From Prochlorococcus sp. MIT 1300 (GTDB lineage Bacteria > Cyanobacteriota > Cyanobacteriia > PCC-6307 > Cyanobiaceae), in the NCBI RefSeq assembly GCF_034092375.1, contig NZ_CP139302.1:1116001-1180000 (forward strand): 64,000 nucleotides of DNA, given 5' to 3'. Both the position numbers and the translations under genes were made by a program. Below are positions 55,594-63,390 of this stretch, one piece after another. The notes under the pieces were generated by a model that was not told the DNA's origin, searched no databases, and worked only from the letters and a program-made list of their open reading frames with translations. Each line of letters starts with the position of its first letter. Position 1 is the first letter of the stretch.

Positions 55594-56438
55594 TCAAAAA
55601 AGAAAATAAAAGTATTGCTTGGTTTGATAATCAATGGGATAAAATTGCGAACTTACAGTTTCCATTACAGGACCGCGGTCTTCACTTAGGGGATGGTATT
55701 TTTGAAACCATTCTTATACATCAAGGCTACCCACAACATCTACAATCACATATAAAACGCTGGGAAAAAAGTGCATTATTGCTAGGAATGGCAAATCCAC
55801 CAGAAGCTGATTGGATAGAAGAACTAATCAATCAAGCAGTGCAACGTTGCAACGCCTCAGAAACTGATGCGGCTTTAAGAATTAATTGGAGTCGCGGTTG
55901 CTTAGAAACAAGGGGAATTAACATACCTATTACTTCTACACACCCCTCAACGCATCGCTTTTGGTTAGAGTTCAACTCCATTTCACCATCCTTTCAACCA
56001 ATAACAACTCTAATTAGTAGGCATGAGCGTAGGAATCCATGGAGTAATTTAAGTCAATGCAAAACATTCGGCTATGGGCAATCCATTCAAGCTCGTCGAG
56101 AAGCTCAACTTGCAGGCTTTGATGATGCGTTACTACTATCAACAAACAATGAATTATGTTGTGGTAGTACGGCAAATATACTGATCTTTCGCGAAGGCAA
56201 ATGGCTAACACCACACTTAAAAAGTGGATGCTTGCCAGGAGTAATGAGACAACAAGGTCTGAACAGAGGCTTATTTAAAGAGGCTGAATTAAGTGCAATT
56301 CCTCAAAGCAAAGATCAATGGGTACTTATAAATAGTTTAGGTTGCCACCCAATTCAAAAGTTAAATAATACACAGCTAGAAATCTTTCCCAAATCTTATG
56401 AGTTATGGCAATCACTACTCATGCCTAAAAGGCAATAG
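55590..56438 (+). CDS. pabC: Aminodeoxychorismate lyase-like class IV aminotransferase
   Basis: A 282-residue fold-type IV PLP protein. The start region has QDRGLHLGDGIFETILIHQG; the PLP lysine is K158 in SQCKTFGYG, and a later GFDDALLLSTNNELCCGSTA carries the phosphate-binding part. Coupling to pabB by a 4-nt overlap supports the 4-amino-4-deoxychorismate lyase role rather than a branched-chain or D-amino acid transaminase. It is convergent with cobA and overlaps it by 14 nt. Confidence 0.88.
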   Translation: MIKKENKSIAWFDNQWDKIANLQFPLQDRGLHLGDGIFETILIHQGYPQHLQSHIKRWEKSALLLGMANPPEADWIEELINQAVQRCNASETDAALRINWSRGCLETRGINIPITSTHPSTHRFWLEFNSISPSFQPITTLISRHERRNPWSNLSQCKTFGYGQSIQARREAQLAGFDDALLLSTNNELCCGSTANILIFREGKWLTPHLKSGCLPGVMRQQGLNRGLFKEAELSAIPQSKDQWVLINSLGCHPIQKLNNTQLEIFPKSYELWQSLLMPKRQ

Positions 56439-57210
56439 GCATTGTGACATTCGCAGGGGTTGGTGCAGCAGCTTCTATCTGAGTATCTACTACTCTTCCA
56501 ACAACCACAATTGATGGAGATATAAAACCTTCTTCTTTGACCTTCCCAACCAACTCATCCAAAGAGCTCTTTAAATAACGCTGTCCTACCACTGTGCCTT
56601 GCTGAATAACTGCTGAAGGTGTCATTGGATCTAAGCCCCCAGTCAAAAGAGCGTCAACAATACTTTCTAAATTATGCAAGCCCATATATATCACTAAAGA
56701 ATCAGAAGCATGAGCAAGAGCTTGCCAATTAACAGCGGGTCGTTTTTTATCAATTTCTTCATGACCAGTGACAAAAGTCACAGAACTACCAACCACTCGA
56801 TGAGTTACTGGAATACCTAAATATGCTGGGGCAGCAATACCTGCAGTAACACCTGGAACAACCTCGACGTTGACGCCATGTCGACTCAAATATGCAGCCT
56901 CTTCTCCTCCGCGACCAAAAACGTAAGGATCTCCGCCCTTTAAACGCACTACACATTCATAACGACTAGCCAAGTCCAGAAGGATTGCGTTTGTTTTCGC
57001 CTGAGGAACTGAATGGTGACCCCTACGCTTTCCAACAAATTTAGAGTCACAAGAGTCAGGTACCAAACTCAGAATTTCGTTAGGGACCAGTGAGTCATAT
57101 ACAAGAGCATCACACTGTGATAGGAGGCGACTAGCTTTAAGTGTTAGCAAATCAGGGTCTCCAGGTCCTGCACCTACGAGGTAAACCTTTCCTAATTTCA
57201 TCTGGTTCAT
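56425..57210 (-). CDS. cobA: Uroporphyrinogen-III C-methyltransferase
   Basis: This SAM-dependent enzyme makes precorrin-2, the branch point to siroheme and cobalamin. The 261-residue single-domain form has VYLVGAGPGDPDLLTLKASR and RLKGGDPYVFGRGGEEA. No CysG fusion is present. It overlaps the CbiX-like gene by 4 nt, and both lie divergent from nirA, which needs siroheme, so the pair may serve nitrite reduction, although sulfite reductase and cobalamin also draw on it. Confidence 0.95.
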   Translation of the reverse strand: MNQMKLGKVYLVGAGPGDPDLLTLKASRLLSQCDALVYDSLVPNEILSLVPDSCDSKFVGKRRGHHSVPQAKTNAILLDLASRYECVVRLKGGDPYVFGRGGEEAAYLSRHGVNVEVVPGVTAGIAAPAYLGIPVTHRVVGSSVTFVTGHEEIDKKRPAVNWQALAHASDSLVIYMGLHNLESIVDALLTGGLDPMTPSAVIQQGTVVGQRYLKSSLDELVGKVKEEGFISPSIVVVGRVVDTQIEAAAPTPANVTMPIAF

Positions 57211-58143: not shown

Positions 58144-58157
58144 GTATTGATAATTAC
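58144..58157 (+). promoter_or_regulatory. NtcA-type binding site 1 upstream of nirA
   Basis: The sequence GTATTGATAATTAC is an exact match to the NtcA consensus GTA-N8-TAC. NtcA is the CRP-family activator of nitrogen genes in cyanobacteria. It lies 116 nt before the nirA ATG. Confidence 0.72.
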
Positions 58158-58183: not shown

Positions 58184-58197
58184 GTAATTCTCGATAC
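58184..58197 (+). promoter_or_regulatory. NtcA-type binding site 2 upstream of nirA
   Basis: GTAATTCTCGATAC is a second exact GTA-N8-TAC match, centred 40 bp from the first. A TAATAG hexamer at 58222-58227 lies 24 nt downstream and is a possible -10 element (one mismatch from TAN3T), the spacing expected for NtcA-activated promoters. Confidence 0.75.
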
Positions 58198-58272: not shown

Positions 58273-59895
58273 ATGACTGAGGAATTCACACTTAAGCCTT
58301 ATTTGCAAGGCAAGAAATTGAATAAGATTGAGCAAATGAAATCAATTAAAGATGGGTTGGAAATAGGCAAAGACATTGATAAATTTTCAAAAATCGGTTG
58401 GCAAGAAATGGATAAGACTGATTTAGAATTAAGGTTGAAGTGGTATGGGATGTTTTGGCGCCCAAAATCCCCGGGTCAATTCATGCTAAGGCTAAGAATT
58501 CCCAATGGAATCATCAATTCTACCCAACTAAATATTGTTGCCTCTATAGTTGCAAGATATGGTGAAAATGGCAGTTGTGATATAACAACAAGACAGAACC
58601 TTCAACTGCGAGGGGTTTTAATAAGTGACCTGCCAGAAATAATAAAGCGACTTAACGAAGCAGGTATTAGCACTATACAATCAGGTTTTGATAATCCAAG
58701 AAATGTTACTGGTAACCCTTTAGCGGGAGTTGACCCTGAAGAAATAATAGATACAAGACCTTATACAATTGAATTGCAGAACTATCTTACAAATAATGGA
58801 AAGGGTAATTCAGATTTTTCCAACCTTCCAAGAAAATGGAACACTGCTATAGCCGGTTCCCAAGACAATTTCCTTCTACACAATGACCTGATATTTCACC
58901 CTGTAAAGCATCAAGGCGAATTAGGATTTGGAGTGTGGGTTGGAGGGGTACTTTCTGCGCAGCTCAATGTATATGCTGTACCATTAAATGTTTGGATTAA
59001 AGCTAATCAAATATGCAAGCTAACTGGAGCTATTCTAGGTCTATGGCGTGATAATGGAGAAAGGGACAAACGCCCCAAAGGCCGATTCAGGTTTTACTTA
59101 GATAGTATTGGAATTGATGTATTTAGGAAACTACTAGAGAATAGATTTGGACCACTTATTGAAGACCCTGGTTCAGAGTTTAGCAAGGACACACGCTCAT
59201 TATTTGGAATACATCCACAAAAACAGGCCGGTGAGTTTTACGCAGGGATACATGTTCCTGTTGGCAGGTTAACTGCTGAAGATCTTCAAGACCTTTCTAC
59301 AGTTGCATATGAATATGGAAGCAGTGAAATTCGATTAACAGAAGACCAAAATATAATCTTCATCGGCATACAAAAAGCTTCACTCGAAAAATTTAAAGAG
59401 AATCACCTTTTAAAGCGATTCCCTCTAGCGCCACAAGCAATAGCTGCAGGAACCGTGTCTTGCACTGGAAATACCTATTGCAGTTTTGCACTAACCAATA
59501 CTAAGGATGTAGCTTTCAAAGTTTCTAGCCAACTCGACAAGGAACTTGAGCTTCCTAAAGAAGTAAAAATTCACTGGACTGGATGTCCAAATAGTTGTGG
59601 ACAAGCCTATATGGGAGGCATAGGTCTAACAGGCACAAAAGCAAAGAATAAACAAGGACAAATGGTAGAAGCATATCAAGTGACTGTAGGGGGCTCTCAA
59701 GGTAAAATTAAAAATATTGGTACAGTCCAACACAAATCTGTTCCCAAAGATGAAGTAAAAGCGGTCATAAAGCAAATACTAATAAGTGATTTCGGAGCCT
59801 CACCAAAAAAAACAAATAAGAAAAGAATTAGGAATTTAGTTTCTACTGTTCTTAATTATTTGTTTCAGAAGGATAAAAGCTGTTATATACAATAA
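58273..59895 (+). CDS. nirA: Ferredoxin-nitrite reductase
   Basis: NirA reduces nitrite to ammonium with six electrons from ferredoxin. The 540-residue protein has two nitrite/sulfite-reductase halves. The siroheme/4Fe-4S ligands are C397-x5-C403 and C438-x3-C442 (GCPNSCG). FGVWVGGVLSAQ and NPRNVTGNPLAGVDPEEIID are further family marks. The last ~27 residues after GASPKK form a basic tail beyond the usual end, and part of it is encoded within a 20-bp perfect inverted repeat. Two exact NtcA boxes upstream indicate nitrogen control. No ferredoxin domain is fused. Confidence 0.95.
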   Translation: MTEEFTLKPYLQGKKLNKIEQMKSIKDGLEIGKDIDKFSKIGWQEMDKTDLELRLKWYGMFWRPKSPGQFMLRLRIPNGIINSTQLNIVASIVARYGENGSCDITTRQNLQLRGVLISDLPEIIKRLNEAGISTIQSGFDNPRNVTGNPLAGVDPEEIIDTRPYTIELQNYLTNNGKGNSDFSNLPRKWNTAIAGSQDNFLLHNDLIFHPVKHQGELGFGVWVGGVLSAQLNVYAVPLNVWIKANQICKLTGAILGLWRDNGERDKRPKGRFRFYLDSIGIDVFRKLLENRFGPLIEDPGSEFSKDTRSLFGIHPQKQAGEFYAGIHVPVGRLTAEDLQDLSTVAYEYGSSEIRLTEDQNIIFIGIQKASLEKFKENHLLKRFPLAPQAIAAGTVSCTGNTYCSFALTNTKDVAFKVSSQLDKELELPKEVKIHWTGCPNSCGQAYMGGIGLTGTKAKNKQGQMVEAYQVTVGGSQGKIKNIGTVQHKSVPKDEVKAVIKQILISDFGASPKKTNKKRIRNLVSTVLNYLFQKDKSCYIQ

Positions 59896-59933: not shown

Positions 59934-60077
59934 ATGACTAACACAACACAAAGCAAAGATCTATTTTCAAGGTTTGTAAATTGGTTGAGTGAATTAGGCA
60001 AAGAGAAACCTATTTCTAATAATGAAAATGGAGGACAAGATCCATTTTCAAAGTTAATGAACCGTATTAGCGGATAA
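59934..60077 (+). CDS. Candidate 47-aa protein with internal repeat, between nirA and focA
   Basis: ATG 59934 to TAA 60077. Residues 8-19 (KDLFSRFVNWLS) and 35-46 (QDPFSKLMNRIS) are two copies of a D-x-F-S-[RK]-x2-N-x-[LI]-S motif, also visible as an 81-nt-offset direct repeat in the DNA. The spacer between is polar and Asn-rich. No Shine-Dalgarno is evident. It could be a small regulator or adaptor of nitrite uptake or reduction; function is unknown. Confidence 0.55.
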   Translation: MTNTTQSKDLFSRFVNWLSELGKEKPISNNENGGQDPFSKLMNRISG

Positions 60078-60106: not shown

Positions 60107-61018
60107 ATGAATCAAACAACTTCTCAAATGGACTATGTCCTGCCCAATGAACTAGTAGATGGGATGATTGCCGCAGGAGGCAAAAAGGCAACAGTCAGTG
60201 CTAAGAATCTCTTAGTTCGAGGATTCTATTCTGGTGCGATTCTTGGGCTAGCAACTTGCTTAGCAATTACTGTAGGTATACAGTCTAAAATGCCTTTTCT
60301 TGGATCATTTCTATTTCCTTTTGGGTTTGCAAGTATAGTTCTTTTTGGGATGGAGCTAGTAACAGGAAACTTTGCCCTTTTGCCAATGGCAACATGGGCC
60401 GGTAAAAGCACTTGGAGATCTACATTTAGGAATTGGACATGGGTATGGATTGGGAATTTTATAGGTACATTACTCGTAGCTATTTTATTATCAATTAGTC
60501 TCACAAGTGCTGGAACAGTAGAGCCATTGGCGGCTTCAGATGGTGGCAAAGGGTGGGCTTTGATTGCAGCCAAAATAATCTCAATTAATAAGGCTAATGT
60601 TTTAGTCAAATACGAAGCTCTTGGAAGTACTGGATTCTTTCTTGCATTTCTAAGAGGAGTCATCGCAAACTGGCTGGTATGTTTAGGCGTAACGATGGCG
60701 CTTGTTAGTAAAAGCGTGCCAGGCAAAATACTTGCTTGTTGGTTGCCAATCACTGCTTTCCAGACTATGGGAATGGAACATATAGTTGTTAATATGTTCT
60801 TGCATACTGCGGGCCCACTTCTTGGATCTGGTGTTCCTTTTACAAAAGTAATCTTTTGGAATTTCCTACCAGTTACCATAGGCAATATCGTTGGAGGAAT
60901 GGTATTTATTGGCATGCTCTTCTATAGCACCCATAGAACCAAGATGTCTAACGTGCTCCCAAGTATTCACGATGAAAAACTTGAACGTGAACTCGCTGCA
61001 GAACTAGGCGCCAGATGA
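60107..61018 (+). CDS. focA: Formate/nitrite transporter (FNT) family channel
   Basis: The 303-residue membrane protein has about six helices and FNT signatures: LFGMELVTGNFALLPMA, GNFIGTLLVAILL, and the region HIVVNMFLHTAGPLLG with the conserved central histidine. Its place after nirA and the NtcA sites points to nitrite as substrate. It is convergent with the unknown gene ending at 61004 and overlaps it by 15 nt. Confidence 0.92.
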   Translation: MNQTTSQMDYVLPNELVDGMIAAGGKKATVSAKNLLVRGFYSGAILGLATCLAITVGIQSKMPFLGSFLFPFGFASIVLFGMELVTGNFALLPMATWAGKSTWRSTFRNWTWVWIGNFIGTLLVAILLSISLTSAGTVEPLAASDGGKGWALIAAKIISINKANVLVKYEALGSTGFFLAFLRGVIANWLVCLGVTMALVSKSVPGKILACWLPITAFQTMGMEHIVVNMFLHTAGPLLGSGVPFTKVIFWNFLPVTIGNIVGGMVFIGMLFYSTHRTKMSNVLPSIHDEKLERELAAELGAR

Positions 61019-61360
61019 TTTAATTAGGGAATTCCCAGAAGAATATTTTCTTCTGGGAATTCCGCCCCTAAACGTGATAAATAGTTCATCAGCCTCACAC
61101 ATAGATTGATTATCTTCATGAAAACTACATTTATACATCAAATTAATAATCCTTTTCTCGTCAATTTTTCGATCTGCTACTTCTCGCCAGAGACGGTTGG
61201 TCAACTCATCATCAGCGAGGCAGAACTGCGCATGAACAAGCTGTCTAGCAAGATCAAATATCATTTCTTGTTCAGACGTAAGGCCAACTTCTAAAAACTT
61301 GCCAGGCGATTTGCCCTGGTAACGCAATTCTGACTTATTAGATATAAGGTCTCTAATCAT
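61004..61360 (-). CDS. Conserved hypothetical protein in the nitrite island, 118 aa
   Basis: A soluble, helix-rich protein. The middle reads SEQEMIFDLARQLVHAQFCL and the acidic end ADDELTNRLWREVADRKIDE. The last ~20 residues (GGIPRRKYSSGNSLIKSSGA) are encoded across a 16-bp hairpin that also serves the 3' end of focA, so the natural protein may have an unconserved tail. The family is not recognised. It is divergent from the HEAT-repeat-like gene, with one exact NtcA box between. Confidence 0.68.
   Translation of the reverse strand: MIRDLISNKSELRYQGKSPGKFLEVGLTSEQEMIFDLARQLVHAQFCLADDELTNRLWREVADRKIDEKRIINLMYKCSFHEDNQSMCEADELFITFRGGIPRRKYSSGNSLIKSSGA
61028..61063. terminator. 16-bp perfect hairpin after focA
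   Basis: Arms 61028-61043 and 61048-61063 (GGAATTCCCAGAAGAA and its complement) with a 4-nt loop TATT. It lies 10 nt after the focA stop and within the end of the convergent gene. This is a good candidate for the focA transcript end, though the following U-tract is poor. Confidence 0.6.
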
Positions 61361-61470: not shown

Positions 61471-61484
61471 GTATTCACTATTAC
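61471..61484. promoter_or_regulatory. Third NtcA-type site, between divergent genes
   Basis: GTATTCACTATTAC is an exact GTA-N8-TAC match in the 146-nt gap between the unknown gene (starting 61360, reverse) and the HEAT-like gene (starting 61507, forward). It is too close to 61507 for a usual activator position on the forward strand, so it may act on the reverse-strand gene or as a repressor site. Confidence 0.5.
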
Positions 61485-61506: not shown

Positions 61507-62235
61507 ATGACAGGCATTGAATCAGAGATCTGGGAAAGACTTTGCAATACTAAGATAATTCCAATAGAAGTTACCTGGCTTGCTGATAAATACTCTCCAA
61601 CACTATCCAAAGAACTAAAAATTGCAATATGTGAACAGCTGGGCATGAAATCGCAAGAAGGCTGGAAGGCAATAAAAAATCTAATTAAAAAATATGGAAA
61701 ACAACCTGAACTAATTCTTGCCAGTGGGCTTTGTCATCAGGATGAAGCCAAAGAACTTCTTCTCAACACTATAAAAGAAGAGGATGGAAAGTTTAATATA
61801 ACAACAATTAGGGCACTTAACTGCTGGGGCGCAGAACTGCCAATAAGCTTGCTAAAGCAAATTCTTGAATCTCTAGAACAAGAAATTAGACTTGCAGGAA
61901 TTGATTTGCTAAAGTTTAAATTACATACACTTAGTGAAAAAGAAATTTTAGAATTAACCAAAAACCTGCTTATTGACATACGTGATCCAATATTAGTTGC
62001 GACTATCAGGGTATTACAACGCCGAGACGAAGAATCTATTAGCGAAAAGCTAAGAATTTTAGTTGAAGAGGGTTCTGATGTTGTTGCTAAATCAGCGTTA
62101 ATTGCTTTAGGTTCAATAGGGACCCATAAAAGTTATGAAATTCTTACTTGCCTATTTAAAACACTACCTCCAGGGATTAAAAGGGATCTAACCAACAAAC
62201 AACTCAAGAGCCAATATAGATTTGCAAATACTTAG
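61507..62235 (+). CDS. HEAT-repeat-like protein, nitrite-island
   Basis: The 242-residue protein is all-helical by pattern, with repeating short helices such as ELILASGLCHQDEAKELLLN, TIRALNCWGAELPISLLKQI, and AKSALIALGSIGTHKSYEIL. This is typical of HEAT or PBS-lyase-type repeats. In cyanobacteria such proteins serve as scaffolds, including some linked to phycobilin attachment, but its location between focA and a CnaT-like gene suggests a role in nitrite use. Function is inferred from context only. ATG 61507 lies 22 nt after an NtcA box. Confidence 0.75.
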   Translation: MTGIESEIWERLCNTKIIPIEVTWLADKYSPTLSKELKIAICEQLGMKSQEGWKAIKNLIKKYGKQPELILASGLCHQDEAKELLLNTIKEEDGKFNITTIRALNCWGAELPISLLKQILESLEQEIRLAGIDLLKFKLHTLSEKEILELTKNLLIDIRDPILVATIRVLQRRDEESISEKLRILVEEGSDVVAKSALIALGSIGTHKSYEILTCLFKTLPPGIKRDLTNKQLKSQYRFANT

Positions 62236-62316: not shown

Positions 62317-63390
62317 GTGACTTTCGATATCCATATGGAAGAAGCTATCGAAAAGCGCTTCAAAAATTATCTCCGCAAAATAGCAAGTGGTGAAAAAACA
62401 AGTCGAGGACTGAGTAGAGAAGAGTCTGCAGATGCTTTAAAAGCAATTCTTACTGGCAAAGCAAGTCCAGCTCAAATAGGAGCATTCTTCATTGCTCATC
62501 GTATTCGCCGACCGGAACCACAAGAACTTGCTGGAATGCTTGATACTTACCTATCACTTGGCCCAAAGCTTAAATCAGTGAATAATCAAAGAGCTCCCAT
62601 TTGTTTTGGGATGCCTTTCGATGGACGTAAAAGAACCACACCAATCTATCCATTGACAACCCTTGTATTACTAAGCGCAAATCAGCCAATTGTGTTACAA
62701 GGTGGAGGAAAAATGCCAATTAAATATGGAATAACTACATCTGAGCTTTTCAAGAGTCTTAGTCTAAATGTCACAGGATCAACAATCCATCAAGTTCAAA
62801 CTGGGTTCGATAAGAATGGGTTGGCAATTATTCACCAACCAGACCATTTCAAATTAGCCGAAGGAATAATCAATTATCGAGATGAAATAGGCAAACGTCC
62901 ACCTATAGCAAGTATGGAACTAATCTGGACAGCTCACCAAGGAAAGCATATTTTGATTAGTGGCTATGTACATCCACCTACTGAAGCAAGAGCCTGGAAA
63001 GCGCTTGATATTATTGGAGAAAACAATATTATAACTATAAAAGGTTTAGAAGGAAGTATAGATTTACCCACAAGTCGTGCATGTATTACAGCTCGCGTTC
63101 AGAACAAAAATATTGAAAGATTGATCTTGCACCCTCGAGATTACAATTGCCACTCAAGTGACATTGAATGGAAAAGTGTACCAGAATGGAGTGCACACGC
63201 ATTGCAAGCACTTGAGAATAAAGGCCCTTTAAAAACAGCTCTTTATTGGAATGCAGGCGTATACCTATGGTTTTCTGGGTTAACAAAGACTTTAAAAGAA
63301 GGCATCGAACTTACAGAGTCTCTTCTCTCTTCTGGAGAAACATTGAAGAAGCTCAGTGAACTAATTAAATGGGAAAACTTGAGACAGTAA
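62317..63390 (+). CDS. TrpD-like (anthranilate phosphoribosyltransferase family) protein, CnaT-like
   Basis: The protein is 357 residues with the TrpD fold: N-terminal helical domain (LSREESADALKAILTGKASP, then QIGAFFIAHRIR) and the nucleoside-phosphorylase-like core. The PRPP/Mg motif expected as GTGGD is replaced at about 97-108 by FGMPFDGRKRTT, and the usual KHGN region reads GGGKMPIKYGIT, so TrpD activity is unlikely. In Anabaena the TrpD-like CnaT is required for expression of the nirA operon. Location next to nirA fits that role. GTG 62317 or ATG 62335 may be the start. Confidence 0.82.
   Translation: MTFDIHMEEAIEKRFKNYLRKIASGEKTSRGLSREESADALKAILTGKASPAQIGAFFIAHRIRRPEPQELAGMLDTYLSLGPKLKSVNNQRAPICFGMPFDGRKRTTPIYPLTTLVLLSANQPIVLQGGGKMPIKYGITTSELFKSLSLNVTGSTIHQVQTGFDKNGLAIIHQPDHFKLAEGIINYRDEIGKRPPIASMELIWTAHQGKHILISGYVHPPTEARAWKALDIIGENNIITIKGLEGSIDLPTSRACITARVQNKNIERLILHPRDYNCHSSDIEWKSVPEWSAHALQALENKGPLKTALYWNAGVYLWFSGLTKTLKEGIELTESLLSSGETLKKLSELIKWENLRQ

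Follow-up and report, generated by a model that had tools for sequence, protein, structure and literature searches.

To our knowledge, the mechanism by which CnaT acts has been an open question since 2003. The stretch of DNA that we analysed (the window; 64,000 nucleotides of a complete genome of 1.86 Mb in one contig) bears on this question, as it places a gene for a TrpD-like protein that lacks the PRPP-binding signature among the genes for nitrite assimilation. Is this protein an enzyme of tryptophan biosynthesis, or is it the counterpart of Anabaena CnaT, and does it control nirA? The requirement of CnaT for expression of the nirA operon is known for Anabaena only (Frias et al. 2003, cited in PMC9430850); the citing paper names a cnaT gene in marine Synechococcus WH7803, with a reported NtcA site. 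The features of the locus are listed in Table 1.

The cluster is located between pyrG and ppk, where the nitrite and nitrate genes of LLI Prochlorococcus have also been placed (PMC6370341). It begins with two minus-strand genes, cobA and a CbiX-like one, which are followed by nirA, a 47-aa ORF, focA, the gene for a HEAT-repeat protein, cnaT, an MFS gene and ppk. The nitrite-cluster setting proposed by a sequence-only reading of this DNA is real, with cobA, nirA, focA, the HEAT gene and cnaT in this order. Perfect GTAN8TAC boxes of the NtcA type occur three times in 3.6 kb, with about 0.35 expected (p = 0.006, for a stretch picked after the boxes had been seen), and nine Synechococcus-type genomes have an NtcA-type box about 80 bp upstream of cnaT. 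The 47-codon ORF has counterparts of 51–65% identity at the same place in several Synechococcus-type genomes; its assignment as NirP1 or PirN was rejected, as both are reported absent from Prochlorococcus. The 118-codon ORF opposite the gap between focA and the HEAT gene may be spurious; it had no relative in any related locus compared, and its weak Pfam match lies below the cut-off. Several Synechococcus-type genomes (L120, L126, L135) have what we judged by eye to be a cyanase (CynS)-like ORF on the minus strand between the HEAT gene and cnaT. Querying the window's genome with a proteobacterial NasA to find NarB gave no match; run without a positive control, this search is uninformative.

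Table 1. Features of the nitrite cluster and of the cnaT-family gene (positions in the window)
Feature	Position	Strand	Basis or remark
cobA, uroporphyrinogen-III C-methyltransferase (siroheme branch)	56425..57210	-	PF00590 168 bits, synteny
NtcA-type box GTATTGATAATTAC	58144..58157	+	upstream of nirA
NtcA-type box GTAATTCTCGATAC	58184..58197	+	upstream of nirA
nirA, ferredoxin-nitrite reductase	58273..59895	+	NF007125 829.5 bits, cut-off 594
47-codon ORF	59934-60077	+	between nirA and focA
focA-type nitrite transporter	60107..61018	+	PF01226 216.8 bits
118-codon ORF	61004-61360	-	
NtcA-type box GTATTCACTATTAC	61471..61484	+	upstream of HEAT-cnaT
HEAT-repeat protein	61507..62235	+	Pfam HEAT_2
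cnaT-family gene (PRK07394)	62317..63390	+	GTG start, 357 aa, intact ORF
Alternative cnaT start, in-frame ATG	62335	+	
Re-lined PRPP loop G-M-P-F-D-G-R-K-R-T-T-P	62608..62643	+	TrpD: GTGGDG....N
Second loop Q-G-G-G-K-M-P-I-K-Y-G	62698..62730	+	TrpD: K-H-G-N-R-S-x-S-x-K-x-G
G-K-R-P-P-x-A	62890..62910	+	at TrpD R..LG.RT anthranilate-site stretch
H-P-P-T-E motif	62971..62985	+	in nearly all CnaTs (YbiB: H-P-E)
K-G-L-E-G-S-I-D-L-P	63040..63069	+	in place of TrpD Mg-binding D-E motif

The product of the cnaT-family gene scores 522.9 bits against the NCBIfam equivalog model PRK07394 (NF005635, cut-off 287), which all 17 members of our set A1 likewise match, and 63.6 bits against the TrpD model TIGR01245, whose cut-off is 199. 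One could still assume a functional TrpD with unusual loops, as the fold is the same. Both Pfam domains of the TrpD superfamily are found (helical bundle PF02885, 1.1e-14; a/b domain PF00591, 2.2e-10), the AlphaFold model (pLDDT 71, pTM 0.75; moderate confidence) has the AnPRT fold, and the best PDB matches to this model are TrpDs (E = 3e-15, TM 0.63–0.74 by query length), as are all of the top 50. With a model of moderate confidence and nothing but TrpDs among these matches, the fold alone cannot separate TrpD from YbiB ancestry. However, the TrpD cut-off is missed by 135 bits, the ligands for PRPP and Mg are gone, and a second, canonical TrpD (374 bits) is encoded elsewhere in the same genome (G000:C1:75 kb). 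In a 59-row tree the CnaT sequences form one clade (support 100/100) separate from the TrpD clade (100/99), and the window protein falls into the former, together with heterocyst-former cnaT products that are encoded behind ntcB and near nirA. The model scores, the tree and the second trpD rule out a functional TrpD, the chance of which we put at practically nil. The phylogeny and the search for a separate trpD had both been named as checks by the sequence-only reading, and both came out in its favour: since the protein lies outside the TrpD clade and a canonical trpD is present, the contrary case, a protein nested within functional TrpD in a genome with no other trpD, does not hold here. The gene encodes a TrpD paralogue that is old, vertically inherited and found across the cyanobacteria; it has the AnPRT fold and lacks what tryptophan biosynthesis needs. 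We rejected a phage-borne cnaT, as phage records gave distant TrpD-like matches only.

Besides the fold, one Asp-Gly in the phosphate loop and the Arg at the anthranilate site are common to the protein and TrpD; unlike TrpD, CnaT has neither the PRPP loop, nor the Asn of KHGN, nor, in the alignment, the Mg-binding D-E pair. The GTGGDG motif, present in 16 of 16 reference TrpDs, aligns with G-M-P-F-D-G of the window protein, in which T-G-G of the phosphate loop is gone and D and G are retained. This alignment agrees with the earlier claim that FGMPFDG replaces GTGGD and, together with the model scores, confirms a TrpD-like protein without a PRPP signature. KHGN had been said to be replaced by MPIKYG; it is indeed lost, but its counterpart in the alignment is L-Q-G-G (in VLQGGGKMP). 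M-P-I-K-Y-G lies opposite the TrpD stretch that follows, S-x-S-K-x-G, and the placement was thus one motif off. The motif P-[FY]-D-G is found in all 25 aligned CnaTs, which makes the loop changes a property of the family. Invariant residues, counted over 17 diverse cyanobacterial sequences, make up 34 of the 57 positions in the former active-site loops and 48 of the 288 other positions (odds ratio 7.4, p = 1e-10). The conservation of the replacement loops PFDGRxR, MPxKYG, GKRPP, HPPTE and KGLEGxxDLP shows that the cleft was re-lined and did not decay; the PRPP and Mg loops were replaced by a strongly conserved set of basic, proline-rich loops.

In Nostocales loci, the cnaT-family gene comes after ntcB, which encodes a LysR protein, and nirA lies upstream in divergent orientation; all0601/all0602/alr0607 of Anabaena PCC 7120 have this arrangement. 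Among 100 non-picocyanobacterial loci whose flanking DNA was examined, 88 have ntcB on the cnaT strand, mostly directly upstream. The comparison used other Nostocales in place of the PCC 7120 all0601 sequence, and the orthology therefore rests on the family model, the tree and synteny. On these sequence-based grounds, this LLI-Prochlorococcus-like genome carries the ortholog of Anabaena CnaT, and the identification as its counterpart made from the window alone is borne out by the PRK07394 match, the CnaT clade and the Nostocales synteny; we consider the CnaT orthology and the non-TrpD status of the gene next to certain. The window protein is 40–45% identical to the Nostocales members of the family, and it resembles CnaT of PCC 7120 (all0601) in its PRK07394 family and clade, in having nirA nearby and in the NtcA-type promoter boxes. 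Unlike the situation in Anabaena, the window's genome lacks NtcB, the gene lies downstream of a nirA-focA-HEAT cassette and not behind ntcB, and cnaT is kept in relatives of the window's genome that are without nirA.

Across 291 cyanobacteria, 253 have both cnaT and nirA, 12 only cnaT, 11 only nirA and 15 neither (odds ratio 29, p = 2e-11, uncorrected for relatedness). Within the family to which the window's genome belongs, cnaT and nirA are only loosely linked, with corresponding counts of 21, 3, 4 and 8. All 12 genomes (1.6–1.7 Mb) of one genus, which is probably high-light Prochlorococcus, are without cnaT, and four of these 12 carry nirA; clade names such as this one were deduced from genome size and gene content. 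The six cnaT-less genomes examined (L219–L224) have cobA and the MFS gene divergent and about 70–95 bp apart, with the flanks kept; cnaT was cleanly lost from between these two genes. Three low-light genomes without nirA retain cnaT in place, with dN/dS of about 0.2. NtcB was not found in the window's genome, and NtcA is present; this genome's single LysR protein, with only 29% identity to NtcB, resembles the Rubisco regulator. The HEAT gene, whose product is probably the published 'nirX' (PMC6370341, PMC10119275), is present in 9 of 9 picocyanobacterial genomes with nirA and in 0 of 4 without it among those tested, and it touches nirA in high-light genomes. The sequence-only reading had inferred that CnaT-type control survives in a streamlined genome. 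The gene does survive and co-occurs strongly with nirA, but its survival as a control of nirA is not supported: NtcB is absent, cnaT and nirA dissociate in both directions in related genomes, and it is the HEAT gene that tracks nirA. Because the presence of cnaT is not strictly tied to nirA, its role is probably wider than that one operon, and CnaT probably does more than switch it on. Homology of the HEAT protein to the larger Nostocales HEAT protein beside nirA/ntcB (possibly Anabaena NirB) was rejected after a few-sequence profile comparison gave a probability of 1.9%; given this lack of profile support, we claim HEAT repeats only.

A clue to what the re-lined cleft may bind comes from the TrpD2 proteins, which also have the AnPRT fold without GTGGD, carry a basic loop Y-x-G-[RK]-x-[RK], and bind DNA without a PRPP motif (PMC9835598; for YbiB also PMC10123104). 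As [YF]-x-G-[RK]-x-[RK], this loop occurs in every CnaT and in nearly all of the standalone TrpD2s that we examined, and is absent from all TrpDs (YbiB has Y-N-G-A-R-K); in the alignment, PSYNGARKQ of E. coli YbiB corresponds to MPFDGRKRT of CnaT. Arg92 and Arg123 of YbiB belong to the conserved residues of the TrpD2 groove (PMC10123104); all 25 CnaTs, with the PRPP motif gone, have a G-R-x-[RK] loop and a Lys at or next to these positions; Lys136 in the second loop is invariant and aligns with Arg123. The basic loop common to CnaT and TrpD2 narrows the likely ligand of CnaT towards anionic compounds, such as nucleic acids, acidic peptides or other phosphate compounds.

The same alignments, and the binding of DNA by YbiB and TrpD2, would suit a CnaT that is a YbiB-type, non-sequence-specific binder of nucleic acids or of acidic tails like the one on ObgE, and acts as a nucleic-acid-associated helper. 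However, CnaT is only about 19% identical to YbiB, and the window protein stays below the equivalog cut-offs for YbiB (PRK08136, 79 of 185 bits) and PRK09071 (88 of 257 bits). CnaT also has its own motifs GKRPP, HPPTE and KGLEGxxDLP, with CnaT-specific invariant motifs not seen in YbiB. YbiB is SOS-linked, unlike CnaT. The window protein is basic (charge +9, pI 9.3), whereas the average net charge of the CnaT family is about zero; for this reason we rejected a strongly basic DNA-binding groove as a family trait. On balance, we regard a YbiB-type helper as unlikely. A tree rooted with the very long E. coli DeoA, the sole nucleoside-phosphorylase outgroup, favours CnaT with TrpD2 (90/73), but the alternative of CnaT with TrpD is not rejected (p-AU 0.24), and we do not treat the sister relation to TrpD2 as established.

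An enzyme would be compatible with the conserved pocket as well. With the same fold, CnaT might still act as a transferase or phosphorylase on another anionic substrate, and its product would be the signal behind the nirA effect in Anabaena. The former active-site loops are conserved beyond the need of a non-specific DNA binder, and cnaT is retained in genomes without nirA; set against this are the loss of the PRPP loop, the KHGN Asn and the Mg-binding D-E pair, and the finding that, in the cyanobacteria sampled, cnaT is not constantly accompanied by any metabolic gene. We consider an enzyme a serious candidate, but an unlikely one.

Some TrpD2 members resemble CnaT in their location as well, since they lie in nitrate-assimilation clusters; the proteobacterial gene context comes from plasmid records only. 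A PRK09071 protein is encoded in the order nirB-nirD-nasA-TrpD2-cysG on a Ponticoccus plasmid, Sulfitobacter has the same order (as do three more records by overlap), Catenovulum has nasA-TrpD2 near cobA-nirBD-narK, and Vibrio has nasA-cobA-TrpD2 near nirB. The nas-cluster TrpD2 loci of marine proteobacteria are L176, L177, L184 and L189. In these plasmid records, standalone PRK09071-type genes are nas-linked in four of six genera, the copies in Acinetobacter and Photobacterium having no nitrate-assimilation neighbours; of the 229 plasmid records with nasA, most yielded no TrpD2 relative, against four genera with the linkage. The nas-linked copies do not form one clade in the 59-row tree. Such copies would fit a maturation role too, in which CnaT delivers a cofactor (siroheme, Fe-S or Mo) to nitrite or nitrate reductase or helps it mature, and the loss of nirA transcription in the Anabaena mutant would be indirect. 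The position of proteobacterial TrpD2 genes between nasA and cysG, or adjoining cobA, and the closeness of picocyanobacterial cnaT to nirA and cobA are consistent with this explanation. Nevertheless, four genomes have nirA without cnaT and three have cnaT without nirA, and the HEAT protein fits the part of a nirA companion better; it is probably the better candidate for NirA maturation (9/9 versus 0/4). A maturation role for CnaT therefore appears improbable.

Nine alphaproteobacterial proteins have a TrpD2 domain preceded by an HTH_1 domain of the LysR type, which is complete in eight of them and partial in the ninth. These fusions have no LysR substrate domain and are usually encoded beside siderophore ABC transporters or TonB receptors (loci L179, L180, L181, L182, L186, L187, L188, L190 and L193); they are possibly an undescribed architecture of an iron-related regulator. 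Their likeness to CnaT is that a LysR-type DNA-binding domain is joined to a TrpD2 domain, which for cyanobacterial ntcB and cnaT holds by position only. Unlike CnaT, the fusions are single polypeptides, usually with siderophore or iron uptake genes as neighbours, and have not kept the basic loop, and NtcB, unlike the fusions, has its own LysR substrate domain. Their existence supports a regulatory role.

The reading that we favour, with a probability of about 0.5, is that CnaT is not a TrpD but an anionic-ligand-binding accessory or regulatory protein of nitrogen-oxide assimilation, with a role wider than nirA. The re-lined cleft would bind not PRPP but a different anionic ligand (nucleic acid, an acidic protein tail or another phosphate metabolite), as in TrpD2/YbiB, and CnaT would serve as a nitrogen-status-dependent accessory or co-regulator and not as a housekeeping enzyme. 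Its partner on nirA in filamentous cyanobacteria would be NtcB, an activator of the LysR type. Picocyanobacteria have lost NtcB, so CnaT would have to work without it there, and the target for which it was retained would be broader than nirA.

Tentatively, and with more doubt than confidence, we suggest that CnaT, the nas-cluster TrpD2s of marine proteobacteria and the LysR-TrpD2 fusions may belong to a single superfamily. Its phosphoribosyltransferase cleft, retired from catalysis, would act on the genes for uptake of nitrogen oxides and iron, as a module that either binds a signal or co-regulates; cyanobacterial ntcB-cnaT would then be the split form of the alphaproteobacterial LysR-TrpD2 protein, and in Prochlorococcus the module would work without any LysR partner. 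The comparison supplies CnaT with structural kin (TrpD2), with a clue from fusions (LysR-HTH::TrpD2) and with a context that crosses phyla (nasA-nirBD-cysG/cobA), and the four nirA genomes without cnaT and the three low-light cnaT genomes without nirA amount to a natural experiment. Together these make the role of CnaT directly testable, and they argue against a dedicated nirA switch in Prochlorococcus.
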